A stretch of 61,062 nucleotides of DNA. It comes from Chloroflexota bacterium (lineage in GTDB: Bacteria; Chloroflexota; Dehalococcoidia; DSTF01; RBG-16-68-14). The stretch is taken from assembly GCA_022565155.1 (NCBI GenBank), contig JADFKB010000007.1:1-61062 (forward strand), given 5' to 3'. The translations under genes and the position numbers were made by a program. Below, piece after piece: positions 51,563 to 56,120 of this stretch (position 1 is its first letter; each line of letters starts with the position of its first letter). The notes below the pieces were generated by a model. It was not told the origin of the DNA. It ran no database searches and saw only the letters and a program-made list of their open reading frames with translations.

Positions 51563-51986
51563 ATGGCAATCAAACGAGTGAACGTCGGCAGCGTAGAGAT
51601 CGTCAGCGTCACCGACGGCGCGATGCGCGGCACGCCGGCCTACTTCTTCGCCGGCGTTACCCCCGATGTCTACACGCCCGCCCTCGGCAACGATCTGCGC
51701 GAGGACGGCACCTTCGCAATCGAGTTCGGCAGCTTTTTAGTCCGTTCGTCGGGCCGGACGATACTCGTCGACACCGGGCTGGGGAACAAACTCCCCGGCG
51801 GAACAGGAGGCATGCTGCTGGAGAACCTGAAGCAGATCGGGGTCGGGCCCGGCGATATCGATGTGGTGGTGAACACGCATCTGCACGTCGATCACGTCGG
51901 CTGGAACTGCACGGAGAGCGGCGGCGGTTACGTGCCCACCTTTCCCAACGCCGAGTACTGGATCTCCGAGCAGGAGTGGCAGTACT
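51563..51986 (+). pseudogene. MBL-fold metallohydrolase, 5' part (interrupted by insertion)
   Basis: NTHLHVDHVGWNCTESGGGYVPTFPNAEYWISEQEWQY, then element TIR. Confidence 0.9.
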
Positions 51987-52031
51987 CAGCCTTATTCAAA
52001 AATCCTTCAGTCACGTTTTCGTATCTGATTC

Positions 52032-52238
52032 CTACTCGCAGCTACCCTTTTCGTTGTAGCAACTCGCTCTCTGGCGGGCGATCTCCTCGACTTCCTGTCT
52101 ACTCAGCAGTGTGATGTGCCCGACCTTGTGCCCCGCCAAGCGACCCGATTTCACCCAGCGCTGGACAGTGAGCGGATTCACAGCCAGGATGGCAGCAGCC
52201 TGACCCGACGTAAGAAAAAGCTCCTCGATACACGACAT
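52032..52238 (-). CDS. Excisionase/MerR-like helix-turn-helix protein
   Basis: LFLTSGQAAAILAVNPLTVQRWVKSGRLAGHKVGHITLLSRQEVEEIA. Confidence 0.85.
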   Translation of the reverse strand: MSCIEELFLTSGQAAAILAVNPLTVQRWVKSGRLAGHKVGHITLLSRQEVEEIARQRASCYNEKGSCE

Positions 52239-52321
52239 CAGCAGCCTCCGGCCCTTGACTTCCGCGTGTTGTCCGGCCTACACTGAGGTGTGTTCGCACA
52301 GTGACAGTGGAGGCATTGAGA

Positions 52322-52840
52322 ATGAATGACAGAATAGACGAGCTTGTACAGGAGGTCATGCAGTTGGCCGCCGACCCCCACATCGAGCCAGAGGCCGTTC
52401 ACACGAAGGGGCTGGAAGCCAAGCAGGCTCTCTGGGACGAATTGGACATCCGTCAACTCGCAATCAACATTCTGGACGGGATCGTCCCGTATCGAGCGAA
52501 AGGGCTGCCGTGGGCTATCGGCTGGGTCAACCCCTCCGCGCCGCCACCTGGGCTGGCAGCCGCGTCCACAGCGATTGGGGTGCCAGCCTCCCGGCGTGCT
52601 GCGCCGCAGCCTAGCCGGTCGAAGAGGGTGCTGGAGATAGCCAAAAGCCTCATCGACGACGATGATGCCGATGAGACGGTCAAAACCGATTTCATCGCGA
52701 GCATGCTTCAGAGGGATGGTGACACTACGCCAGTGCGCTCCCTGACTACAGCTATCGGCAATATCCTGAACAGATCGGGCAACTGGCGTCGCGTTCGCCG
52801 TGGCGAATACGAACCGATTACAGCGGAGGGGGTGATGTAG
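52322..52840 (+). CDS. Hypothetical cargo protein with possible C-terminal winged helix
   Basis: MNDRIDELVQEVMQLAADPHIEPEA...PVRSLTTAIGNILNRSGNWRRVRRGEYEPI. Confidence 0.65.
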   Translation: MNDRIDELVQEVMQLAADPHIEPEAVHTKGLEAKQALWDELDIRQLAINILDGIVPYRAKGLPWAIGWVNPSAPPPGLAAASTAIGVPASRRAAPQPSRSKRVLEIAKSLIDDDDADETVKTDFIASMLQRDGDTTPVRSLTTAIGNILNRSGNWRRVRRGEYEPITAEGVM

Positions 52841-52906
52841 CAGGAAAGAAACAGATGAGGCAGGCCCCTCCTTGCGAGTCGAGTCCTGCCCCATCGCTCT
52901 ACCAGC

Positions 52907-52995
52907 GCCGGAATGGTGGAAATGGCAAACACAGCAGCCTGGAAAGCTGCCGTGGCGAGAGCCACTTGCGGGTTCGAATCCCGCTTCCGGCACCA
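52907..52995 (+). tRNA. Class II tRNA, anticodon GGA (Ser) on a Leu-like body, CCA encoded
   Basis: Acceptor GCCGGAA/TTCCGGC; D-stem GTG/CAC; anticodon arm GCAGC-CTGGAAA-GCTGC; variable arm GTGGC-gaga-GCCAC; T-arm GCGGG-TTCGAAT-CCCGC; A73 then CCA. Confidence 0.9.
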
Positions 52996-53065
52996 GATAG
53001 CCAGTTGATGGGGAGGGCAGTGATGAGACCGTCCCTCCCCTGCCAGACAAGGAGAGCTTACCTCC

Positions 53066-54099
53066 ATGTCCACGCAATCCATTGTACCACCACCGCCGAT
53101 AGTCGGCGAACTTCAAGCAATATTCGACGCTCTGCCAGACGATGAGCTGCTGGCGCAACTTGGGAGCGACTCTAAGCAGCTCGGCCGTCCTAAGTACCCG
53201 GTTGATGTCCTCTGGCGCTGCTACATCACCTACTACAGCCTCGGCCTCGATTCGATTTCGGCCTTGCTGCGTCTGTTGAGCGACAATCCGTTCATCGCCG
53301 GCGTCTGTGGCATTCCTGATGCTGAATCGATGCCTAGTCAACCGACCATGAGCCGCTTCGTTGCCAAGCTTGCCCAGCGACGTTTCCTTGTCACGCTGAG
53401 AGACGTTCAGCGCGCCTTGACTCAGATACTTTTCGACACGCTGCCGGGATTCGGTAAGTCGGTCGCGATCGACAGCACGCACATGAGGGCTGGAGCAACG
53501 CCAACAAGAAGGGCAAGCCACGGCGAGGCTCCGTCCGACGCCAACGACCTAAGATCGGCAAGGTGAGCGACCCCGACGCTGGCTGGTGCGTCAAGCGAAA
53601 CACCCACGGCAAGAACCAATACACATTTGGCTACAAGGCGCACCTTCTTGTCGATGCGATTTACGAACTGCCAGTCGCAATCGATGTCACCGCCGGCAAC
53701 GTCGCCGATGTGAAGATGGCTGCACCCCTGTTGAGGCAGGCGCGATTTGCTCACACGTTCATGCCTGATTACGTCCTTTGCGACGCCGGATACTCCAGTG
53801 AGAAGCTTCAGCGCGCGATCAAGAAACAGTACAGGGCCACGCCCATCATCGATCCCAATCCCACGCACAAGAAGGCGATTTTGCGGCAGGAGGCCATACC
53901 GGACTGGAAGGAGCTTTATGCTGATCGCGCTTCGGTCGAGCGGGTTAATGCCCGGATGAAGGGCCACTTCAAACTGGACGCGGTGCGCGTTCGGGGCCGC
54001 ACGAAGCTTCGAAGCCACGCTTTCATGTCCGCAATCGCGCTCTTGGGCCGCGCAGTAGCCTTCCCTGACCGGCCCCGTCAATGTGTTCGGGCACCCTAG
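53066..54099 (+). pseudogene. IS5/IS1182-like DDE transposase split by a -1 frameshift near 53489-53492
   Basis: SVAIDSTHMRA then, in the other frame, WSNANKKGKPRRGS...GKVSDPDAGWCVKRNTHGKNQYTFGYKAHLLVDA...YADRASVERVNARMKGHF; appears as ORFs 53066..53566 and 53563..54099. Confidence 0.9.
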
Positions 54100-54100
54100 A

Positions 54101-54853
54101 TCAACCCTCATCAAACTGCCGAACATTGTCATCCTCTTCGCCAGTGTCTTCGGTGTTAACGCGTTCCTTTCGCTCTGCGAGTTGCTGAGGAAGGACAAAG
54201 ACGTACCTAAAGAACCAAGACGCGAACTCAACAATCTCTTCGGCATCTAGCCGCGTGTTCCATTGCTTTTCCGTTCCACCGTGAGCACCCAACTTCCCGC
54301 CGAGACGGGCTTCGTGCGCCCAATTCCGTAGCTCTGGCGTGATCCGGTGTTCCGTGGCTAGGTGTTCAATTCGCTTGTAGAGAACTTTCTTGCTGTACTT
54401 GGCGCGTTCGTCTTCTGGTTCGATCTCCTCTCCGAGAATTCTGGTCGCCTCCTCCAAGGCCCTGCGGCACATCAGCACACACCCGTCCCATATGCCCTCG
54501 TTACGCGACTTGAGCGCCTGCCGAAAGGCGATTGTCACATCTGGGGGTAAGAGTTCATCTGGCTCTTCTTCCAACCCTGGATGGACCTCGATTTCTTTTC
54601 CCTCGTCATCGAAGATTACCGCCACGCTCCCGTTACAGTCCTCATTGCGGCATCTGTCGAAGCGAATGTTCAGGCCACTCGACTTGCCAAGGTTCAGGGT
54701 TCCTATGTTGGTTCCCGCCAATAACGTCGTGAGTGTGTCATAGGTCGATACTGCTTTGCAGTGCGGACACCTTCTTGATGGCATGACTACCTCCTCCGAT
54801 ATATCAGACTGGAGGCAATCTACCATTTCCGTGAAGTTTTCAGGCATTTTCAA
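54101..54853 (-). CDS. DUF4145 (HEPN-like) protein with N-terminal zinc ribbon
   Basis: RRCPHCKAVS...CRNEDCNGSV...CVLMCRRALEEATRILG...HRITPELRNWAHEARLGGKLGAHGG; Met at 54784 (MPSRRCPHC) also possible. Confidence 0.8.
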   Translation of the reverse strand: MKMPENFTEMVDCLQSDISEEVVMPSRRCPHCKAVSTYDTLTTLLAGTNIGTLNLGKSSGLNIRFDRCRNEDCNGSVAVIFDDEGKEIEVHPGLEEEPDELLPPDVTIAFRQALKSRNEGIWDGCVLMCRRALEEATRILGEEIEPEDERAKYSKKVLYKRIEHLATEHRITPELRNWAHEARLGGKLGAHGGTEKQWNTRLDAEEIVEFASWFFRYVFVLPQQLAERKERVNTEDTGEEDDNVRQFDEG

Positions 54854-54879
54854 CCTCTCTCGACTTTTGAATAAGGCTC

Positions 54880-55289
54880 TACTGGACCGACCCGCTGATC
54901 GTGGAGGAGGAGGGAGGGCATCTCCTCACCGACGTGCTGCCGCTCAAGGACAGCCCTCAGCTCAAGCTGGCCACGGCGAGGCCGCGATCACGCCGGAGCT
55001 TTCCCTGCTGCCGACGCCCGGCCATACGCCCGGCCATTGCTCAGTCGCCGTCGCGTCGGCGGGCGAGACGGCGATCATCTTAGGAGACGTCGCCCATCAT
55101 CCGCTGCACCTGGAATGTATCTGGATCGCCGCGGTCGACGAGCTGCCGAGAGTCTCGCGCAGAACGAAGCGGGCGCTAACGGAGCGGCTGATCGAGGAGC
55201 ACATGCTGGTCGCGGCCGGCCACTTCGCATCGGGAAGCTTCGGGCGCATGGTGCGAGCCGACGGACAGCGGCGCTGGCAGCCGCTCTAG
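54880..55289 (+). pseudogene. MBL-fold metallohydrolase, 3' part, with additional frameshift at ~54971-54976
   Basis: WTDPLIVEEEGGHLLTDVLPLKDSPQLKLA then, -1 frame, GEAAITPELSLLPTPGHTPGHCSVAVASAGETAIILGDVAHHPLHLE. Confidence 0.88.
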
Positions 55290-55292
55290 GCG

Positions 55293-56120
55293 CTACTCCA
55301 CCAGCGGCGGTTCGACCGATAGCGCTGGGTCGTTCGGGCGGGAGACATCGATGCGCAGCTCCCAGGTGGTCGGGGCCGGCAAACCCAGTTGCTCCAGAAT
55401 CTCCACCTCATCGACAACCGTGCCCGACATGAGCAGGCGCACCGGCCAGGACCCGTCTGTCGCCAGCCAGAGATCCCAGGCCAGGTCATCCACATCGTAC
55501 AGAGCCTGCTTGCCACCCAGGAACGACTGCATGAACGCCAACCCCTCGGCGCCCACTTGATAATGATTAGCACGCACCGCGTTGATGAACTCCTGCGTCG
55601 ATGGCAGGTTGAGCACGTTGGCGCGAACACGCTCAAACTCCGGCCCGCCGAGGAACTGCGGCTGGACCGACGTGAACGCGGTATCCAGCAGCGCCGCGAC
55701 GGCGAGATCATCCGGCGTCGTCTGCCGCCAGCCCTCGTCGGCGCGCCGATACCAGGCCTTCTCGCCGATGATCACCACCCTCTCGATCAGCACGCCGTCG
55801 CCTAGCTGTGTGGTATAGGTGAATGCATGGCGATCGGGCGACTGGAAGTCGCCCTCGGTCGAGACGAACAGCTCGTTCGGGTCGCCGCCGGACGCCGCGC
55901 CGCTCATCGTCAACGATGCGACGTAGTGGAAGCGCTCGAGCGGGATCGCTCCTGTACTAACAACGGTCGCCGTCGGTTTGGCGCCAATTGCCGTCGGCGC
56001 GGCGTCTGCGCCGCTTTCGCCGCCGCAAGCGGATACGAACGCCACCAGCAACAGGCCGCCAGCGACGGCGGCCTGCGTAGCGGCGAAGCGATACGCCCGA
56101 ACTCTCAACATCCCTCGCAT
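55293..56120 (-). CDS. Lipoprotein (LppX/LolA-like fold possible)
   Basis: Lipobox LLVAFVSACGG; FHYVASLTMSGAASGG...IGEKAWYRRADEGWRQTTPDD. Confidence 0.75.
   Translation of the reverse strand: MRGMLRVRAYRFAATQAAVAGGLLLVAFVSACGGESGADAAPTAIGAKPTATVVSTGAIPLERFHYVASLTMSGAASGGDPNELFVSTEGDFQSPDRHAFTYTTQLGDGVLIERVVIIGEKAWYRRADEGWRQTTPDDLAVAALLDTAFTSVQPQFLGGPEFERVRANVLNLPSTQEFINAVRANHYQVGAEGLAFMQSFLGGKQALYDVDDLAWDLWLATDGSWPVRLLMSGTVVDEVEILEQLGLPAPTTWELRIDVSRPNDPALSVEPPLVE

Follow-up and report, generated by a model that had tools for sequence, protein, structure and literature searches.

The window (the whole stretch of DNA analysed, 61,062 nucleotides) contains a complete IS1182-like transposable element of 2,893 bp at 51987..54879. 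The element is bounded by imperfect 18-bp terminal inverted repeats (TIRs), the left one (CAGCCTTATTCAAAAATC) at 51987..52004 on the plus strand and the right one at 54862..54879 on the minus strand, and is flanked by a TACT target-site duplication (51983-51986 and 54880-54883). It interrupts the gene of an MBL-fold metallo-hydrolase, whose reading frame becomes continuous across the site once the flanks are joined. Separately, the 3' remainder of that gene (54880-55289) has a further frame break, seen as a stop at amino acid 208 once the insertion is removed. The first-pass annotation had described an element-borne tRNA gene here. Consistent with this, the gene (52907..52995, plus strand) lies within the inverted repeats, with TACT on both sides and flanks that rejoin the interrupted frame. 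The tRNA is integral to an IS1182-like element bounded by TIRs.

As in IS1182 and IS5, the element combines a DDE transposase (DUF772 and DDE_Tnp_1) with terminal inverted repeats, a 4-bp target duplication and a hairpin at the transposase start; unlike them, it carries an upstream ORF and a tRNA, and it falls below the NCBIfam cut-offs. IS1182 is nevertheless the best-scoring NCBIfam family for the transposases of the window and of its closest relative, L326, at 106.6 bits for the window's C-terminal part and 144 bits for the intact L326 protein, both short of the 270-bit cut-off. These two elements, whose transposases are 63% identical, share the repeat end AGCCTTATTCA. Two other related elements, L331 and L349, end in another repeat, GTTGCGAAACT.

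At the left end of the element, a small helix-turn-helix protein of 68 aa (HTH_17; Pfam PF12728, E=2.3e-9) is encoded on the minus strand at 52032..52238. A promoter-like site, TTGACT-18-TACACT (52255..52284, plus strand), then precedes an upstream ORF of 179 aa (52301..52840, plus strand; likelier start ATG 52322); it is the sole promoter-like match in the element, a count close to chance expectation. The upstream ORF is 41% identical to that of L326 (E=3e-29), before which a TTGACA..TACACT-like site can also be read from the sequence. It gave no significant match to a Pfam, NCBIfam or PADLOC family and none to a toxin, antitoxin or defence family, and no relatives were found in the phages or plasmids searched. 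The AlphaFold model of the L331 upstream ORF has a pLDDT of 39, too low to be informative.

Downstream of this ORF lie a hairpin (52854..52895, plus strand; z=-1.8), the tRNA gene and a leader with two further plus-strand hairpins. The first of these is GC-rich (GGGGAGGG...CCCTCCCC, 53010..53040; z=-3.2 for the downstream leader), while the second, GACA-A-GGAG..CTCC-A-TGTC (53046..53070), masks the ribosome-binding site, includes the transposase start codon and has similar counterparts in relatives. The transposase follows on the plus strand as an N-terminal part (DUF772, Pfam PF05598; 53066..53566) and a C-terminal part (DDE_Tnp_1, Pfam PF01609, E=7e-28; 53563..54099). Relative to the intact 344-aa L326 protein, its frame breaks near 53490 through a single-base difference, and a mutation or an assembly error is the likelier cause. 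A programmed frameshift was considered and rejected, as no slippery site is obvious and the relatives encode their transposases in one frame. A DUF4145 passenger protein (Pfam PF13643, E=4e-9) occupies 54101..54853 on the minus strand.

The tRNA gene forms the complete class II cloverleaf with encoded CCA that had been proposed from the first reading. ARAGORN reports a tRNA-Ser(gga) at exactly 52907-52995(+), and the match to the Rfam tRNA model reaches 58.9 bits, where the cut-off is 29. Compared with dinucleotide shuffles, the single-strand fold is more stable by 3.6 sd. The acceptor stem (GCCGGAA/TTCCGGC) is paired at 7/7 positions and the anticodon stem (GCAGC/GCTGC), the variable stem (GTGGC/GCCAC) and the T stem (GCGGG/CCCGC) at 5/5 each, with a D stem of GTG/CAC; the variable stem gives the long arm of a class II tRNA. 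The GGA anticodon is at 52941-52943, the discriminator A73 at 52992 and the CCA at 52993-52995. The gap to the transposase ATG on the same strand is 70 nt, matching the earlier estimate. A second ARAGORN call of tRNA-Ser(gga) in the window, at 55809-55901, is probably false, having no Rfam support and lying antisense to an ORF at 55293-56120.

The body of the window tRNA is of the leucine type, as first described. With the anticodon loop masked, a nearest-neighbour comparison gave scores of 94 for Leu and 65 for Ser, the closest Leu match being a UAA isoacceptor in L032; the reference set held about 100 tRNAs, and leave-one-out assignment was correct for 89/99, most misses being isotypes with one or two references. 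The bacterial Leu determinants A73, A14, A15-U48, G18G19 and A20a (PMC9976931) are all present together with the long variable arm, as is C2-G71, a pair that counters SerRS in E. coli (PMC9976931). Because these published determinants and C2-G71 are present, the window tRNA is predicted, from its sequence, to be charged with leucine, in line with the earlier proposal. Its anticodon does not belong to this body: leucine anticodons have A35 (NAG or YAA), whereas the window tRNA has GGA.

We considered whether the gene might simply supply an extra serine-charged tRNA that helps the host or the element decode Ser codons. Its CTGGAAA anticodon loop is of the serine type and identical to that of the host tRNA-Ser(GGA). 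However, a tRNA-Ser would have G73, G1-C72, G2-C71 and a Ser-type body, whereas the window tRNA has A73 and C2-G71 and a body far nearer to Leu. In the host genome, a draft in 185 contigs, other contigs encode tRNA-Leu with all five usual anticodons (CAG, CAA, GAG, TAG, TAA), all with A73, and tRNA-Ser for which GGA, CGA and GCT were found, all with G73, as the contrast of Leu and Ser discriminators drawn in the first-pass annotation had anticipated. Since the host has normal Leu and Ser tRNA genes, tRNA-Ser(GGA) among them, the window tRNA is an extra gene, and related elements carry other anticodons. A serine helper is thus very improbable.

Relatives were sought in 1,987 genome slots, many genomes being searched more than once, and 11 further members of the transposase family were found, a small set drawn from one class. 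Viral contigs, plasmids and a genome-contig scan gave either no transposase relatives or only distant ones (mostly 21-31% identity). Among the 12 members, ARAGORN and/or Rfam detects a tRNA 60-85 nt before the transposase start in five (window, L326, L331, L352, L358). The number with a tRNA or tRNA-like gene in this slot comes to 7/12 when we count L330, which starts at a contig edge inside the tRNA and shows only its 3' half, and L349 (G000:C148), a second family element in the window's own genome. The L349 cloverleaf, read by hand and by MFE folding and missed by ARAGORN and Rfam, has a 7-bp acceptor, a 5-bp T stem and CCA, with a shortened D-arm and a 6-nt anticodon loop. The remaining five members (L356, L355, L346, L348, L357) have no tRNA in the slot. 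Homologous elements thus conserve tRNA-like genes, a comparison that the first-pass annotation had proposed.

What is not conserved is the identity of the tRNA. The L326 element (2,891 bp, CGTT duplication) has a tRNA with C1-G72, A73, anticodon UAG and a Gln/Pro-like body, weakly assigned; the L331 tRNA has a Lys-like body, G3-U70 and anticodon UAA; the L352 and L358 tRNAs have Arg-like bodies with anticodons GGC (C33 and U37) and CAC (U37), respectively. L085 also came to light, through a Leu-type D-arm with a UGG anticodon; there a homologue of the L331 upstream ORF (E=5e-16), a hairpin and a Leu-body UGG tRNA stand together without a transposase; in L370, an upstream-type ORF stands alone. 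Body and anticodon disagree in every tRNA-bearing member with a readable anticodon arm, the L326 and L349 bodies being weakly assigned, as against about 1/99 of control tRNAs.

Such consistent disagreement raises the possibility of deliberate miscoding, in which each tRNA would be charged according to its body and read non-cognate codons, inserting Leu at UCC/UCU in the case of the window, and would act behind its hairpin, with the upstream ORF, as a conditional toxin, addiction factor or regulator. The Leu determinants and the anti-SerRS pair of the window tRNA fit this, as does G3-U70, an AlaRS determinant, alongside UAA in L331. Furthermore, U33 and a purine 37 suited to the new anticodon are kept in the window, L326, L331 and L085, the ORF-hairpin-tRNA cassette occurs by itself in L085, and allo-tRNAs and nev-tRNAs are precedents for non-cognate anticodons. 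On the other hand, no amino-acid swap is conserved, as the related bodies are Lys-, Arg-, Gln/Pro- and Leu-like with UAA, GGC, CAC, UAG and UGG anticodons. The anticodon loops of L352, L358 and L349 look poor for decoding, Arg bodies with GGC or CAC anticodons should charge poorly, and, as noted above, the upstream ORF gave no hit among toxin, antitoxin or defence families. A private genetic code within the element was also rejected, as the transposase codons matching each element's anticodon align with the standard amino acid in related transposases. Changing bodies and anticodons, three loops ill-suited to decoding and transposases that need the standard code thus leave the Ser-to-Leu missense purpose, suggested in the first reading, unsupported. 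Four loops that still seem able to decode, and an L085 cassette that lacks a transposase, lead us to rank miscoding second, as a rather unlikely reading but a serious contender. Its broader form, an IS family that carries mismatched tRNAs as functional miscoding agents (toxins, addiction factors or translation regulators) controlled by the adjacent ORF and hairpin, with identity swapped between lineages, is likewise unlikely in our judgement.

A different explanation of the changing identities is repeated chance capture of host tRNAs as passengers that now drift without function. Bodies do differ between close relatives (Leu in the window, Gln/Pro-like in L326), and on the transposase tree tRNA presence and absence are interleaved, with the state changing at least three times on well-supported branches; a single gain with two losses would fit these changes, as would several gains. 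Capture does not readily account for the fixed surroundings, as the slot and its neighbours are the same each time, in the order upstream ORF, hairpin, tRNA, leader, transposase. We estimate that chance proximity on the right strand would arise in about 0.1-0.2% of elements, taking about 50 tRNAs in a 2.8-Mb genome. Nor does drift sit well with stems that stay intact despite divergence: acceptor and T stems are paired in 72/72 cells, and both sides have changed in 10/12 pairs. This covariation argues for intact folds and not for one origin, since any set of real tRNAs would show the same. More telling on selection is the comparison of L330 with L331, in which identity is 44% at third codon positions of the transposase, 77% in the leader and 83% (20/24) in the shared 3' part of the tRNA, pointing to constraint. 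Capture without function is, on this evidence, improbable.

Taken with the fixed slot, these observations suggest a working role for the tRNA fold within the element. The reading we favour over miscoding, tentatively and with somewhat less than even confidence, is that the fold serves as an mRNA-processing or regulatory module. Its first place rests on the persistence of fold and slot through changes of identity, and on three loops that seem ill-suited to decoding. That the tRNA is cut from the transposase transcript, as the first-pass annotation had raised, is plausible because the only promoter-like site found precedes the upstream ORF. The tRNA would be made only within a read-through transcript, and its excision by RNase P and 3'-processing enzymes would part the upstream message from the transposase message. 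The upstream message would be left with a protective 3' hairpin, and the transposase message would receive 5' hairpins and a masked start site, such that excision could control the amount of transposase made. Under such a scheme the acceptor and T arms with CCA, above all, would be the selected feature. The anticodon would then be free to change, or might be kept non-cognate so that the by-product is no normal isoacceptor. Once excised, the window tRNA would probably carry leucine, with Leu at UCC/UCU as a possible side effect.

The evidence on this processing module lies on both sides. Pre-tRNA hairpins occur in the tRNA-bearing members examined, with z of -5.5 in L331, -6.5 in L352 and -3.1 in L358 and weaker values in the window and L326, and three of them are terminator-like. 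The start-masking hairpin (GACA-GGAG-loop-CTCC-ATGTC) shows paired changes between members. Together, the shared slot in 7/12 members, the paired stems, the L330/L331 constraint and this conserved hairpin suggest processing, as do the lack of a consistent anticodon identity and of any promoter-like site between hairpin and tRNA in the window element. However, fitting U33 and purine 37 residues in four tRNAs are not needed for mere processing, and L085 has the ORF, hairpin and tRNA without a transposase. In addition, five members have no tRNA, yet most of them retain a start-masking or leader hairpin, the former being similar in tRNA-bearing and tRNA-less members, and the stem covariation is expected of any captured working tRNAs.

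The fold might instead be a tRNA-shaped RNA or DNA with another role, bound by the ORF product, EF-Tu or the transposase, or forming a structural part of a leader riboswitch. The two leader hairpins carry mutually complementary GGGGAGG and CCTCC stretches, and a HARE-HTH domain makes the upstream protein look nucleic-acid-binding in one member, L349. Against this, no pairing common to the members could be seen by eye between the anticodon loop and either the leader or the hairpin loops, and we consider such a role quite improbable.

In the open-access literature we found no description of an IS family in which a tRNA gene recurs as an integral component; a search there on transposon-borne tRNAs gave no match, the nearest systems being allo-tRNAs and nev-tRNAs. 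Allo-tRNAs (Mukai 2017) are likewise bacterial tRNAs whose anticodon does not fit the body, some with G3-U70, and one pseudogene adjoins a transposon ORF (PMC7609411). They differ in having a 12-bp 8/4 or 9/3 acceptor/T domain and Ser identity, whereas the tRNAs of the family described here have a 7/5 arrangement and Leu-, Lys-, Arg- or Gln/Pro-like bodies, and occupy a set position in an IS operon; the window tRNA itself has a 7-bp acceptor, a 5-bp T stem and Leu identity. Nematode nev-tRNAs, which also join a V-arm to a non-Leu anticodon, are leucine-charged in vitro, and no mistranslation was detected in vivo (PMC4300185); they are eukaryotic nuclear genes with Gly/Ile anticodons and are not transposon-borne, and for the window tRNA leucylation is a prediction from sequence only. 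A fold used for mRNA cutting would correspond in nature to the tRNA spacers engineered for processing, and would be a new form of transposase control. If the mismatch is used, transposons would spread miscoding tRNAs through bacteria.

Phage-borne tRNAs are also tRNAs of mobile elements. Two strict patterns for GGA with a Leu-type acceptor and A73 found no match in 2.9 million viral contigs, and the ORF-hairpin-tRNA-transposase layout was seen in no phage record. Class II tRNAs that combine a Leu-type D-arm with a non-Leu anticodon are present in many viral contigs (L086-L324). In some of these tRNAs, A73 and Leu-like acceptors accompany stop-reading (CTA, TTA), Pro, Gly or Ala anticodons; in others, such as an Asn(GTT) tRNA with G73, the acceptor still matches the isotype of the anticodon. 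In L083 (G072), within a tRNA cluster that is elsewhere Arg-Leu-Val, the anticodon of the Leu(CAG) gene is CGG (Pro) and its T stem is damaged, consistent with a pseudogene or a sequence error. A perfect Leu-body tRNA with anticodon ACC (Gly) lies at 1494-1580 of L081 (G139), near an IS1595-like transposase and without the ORF-hairpin module.
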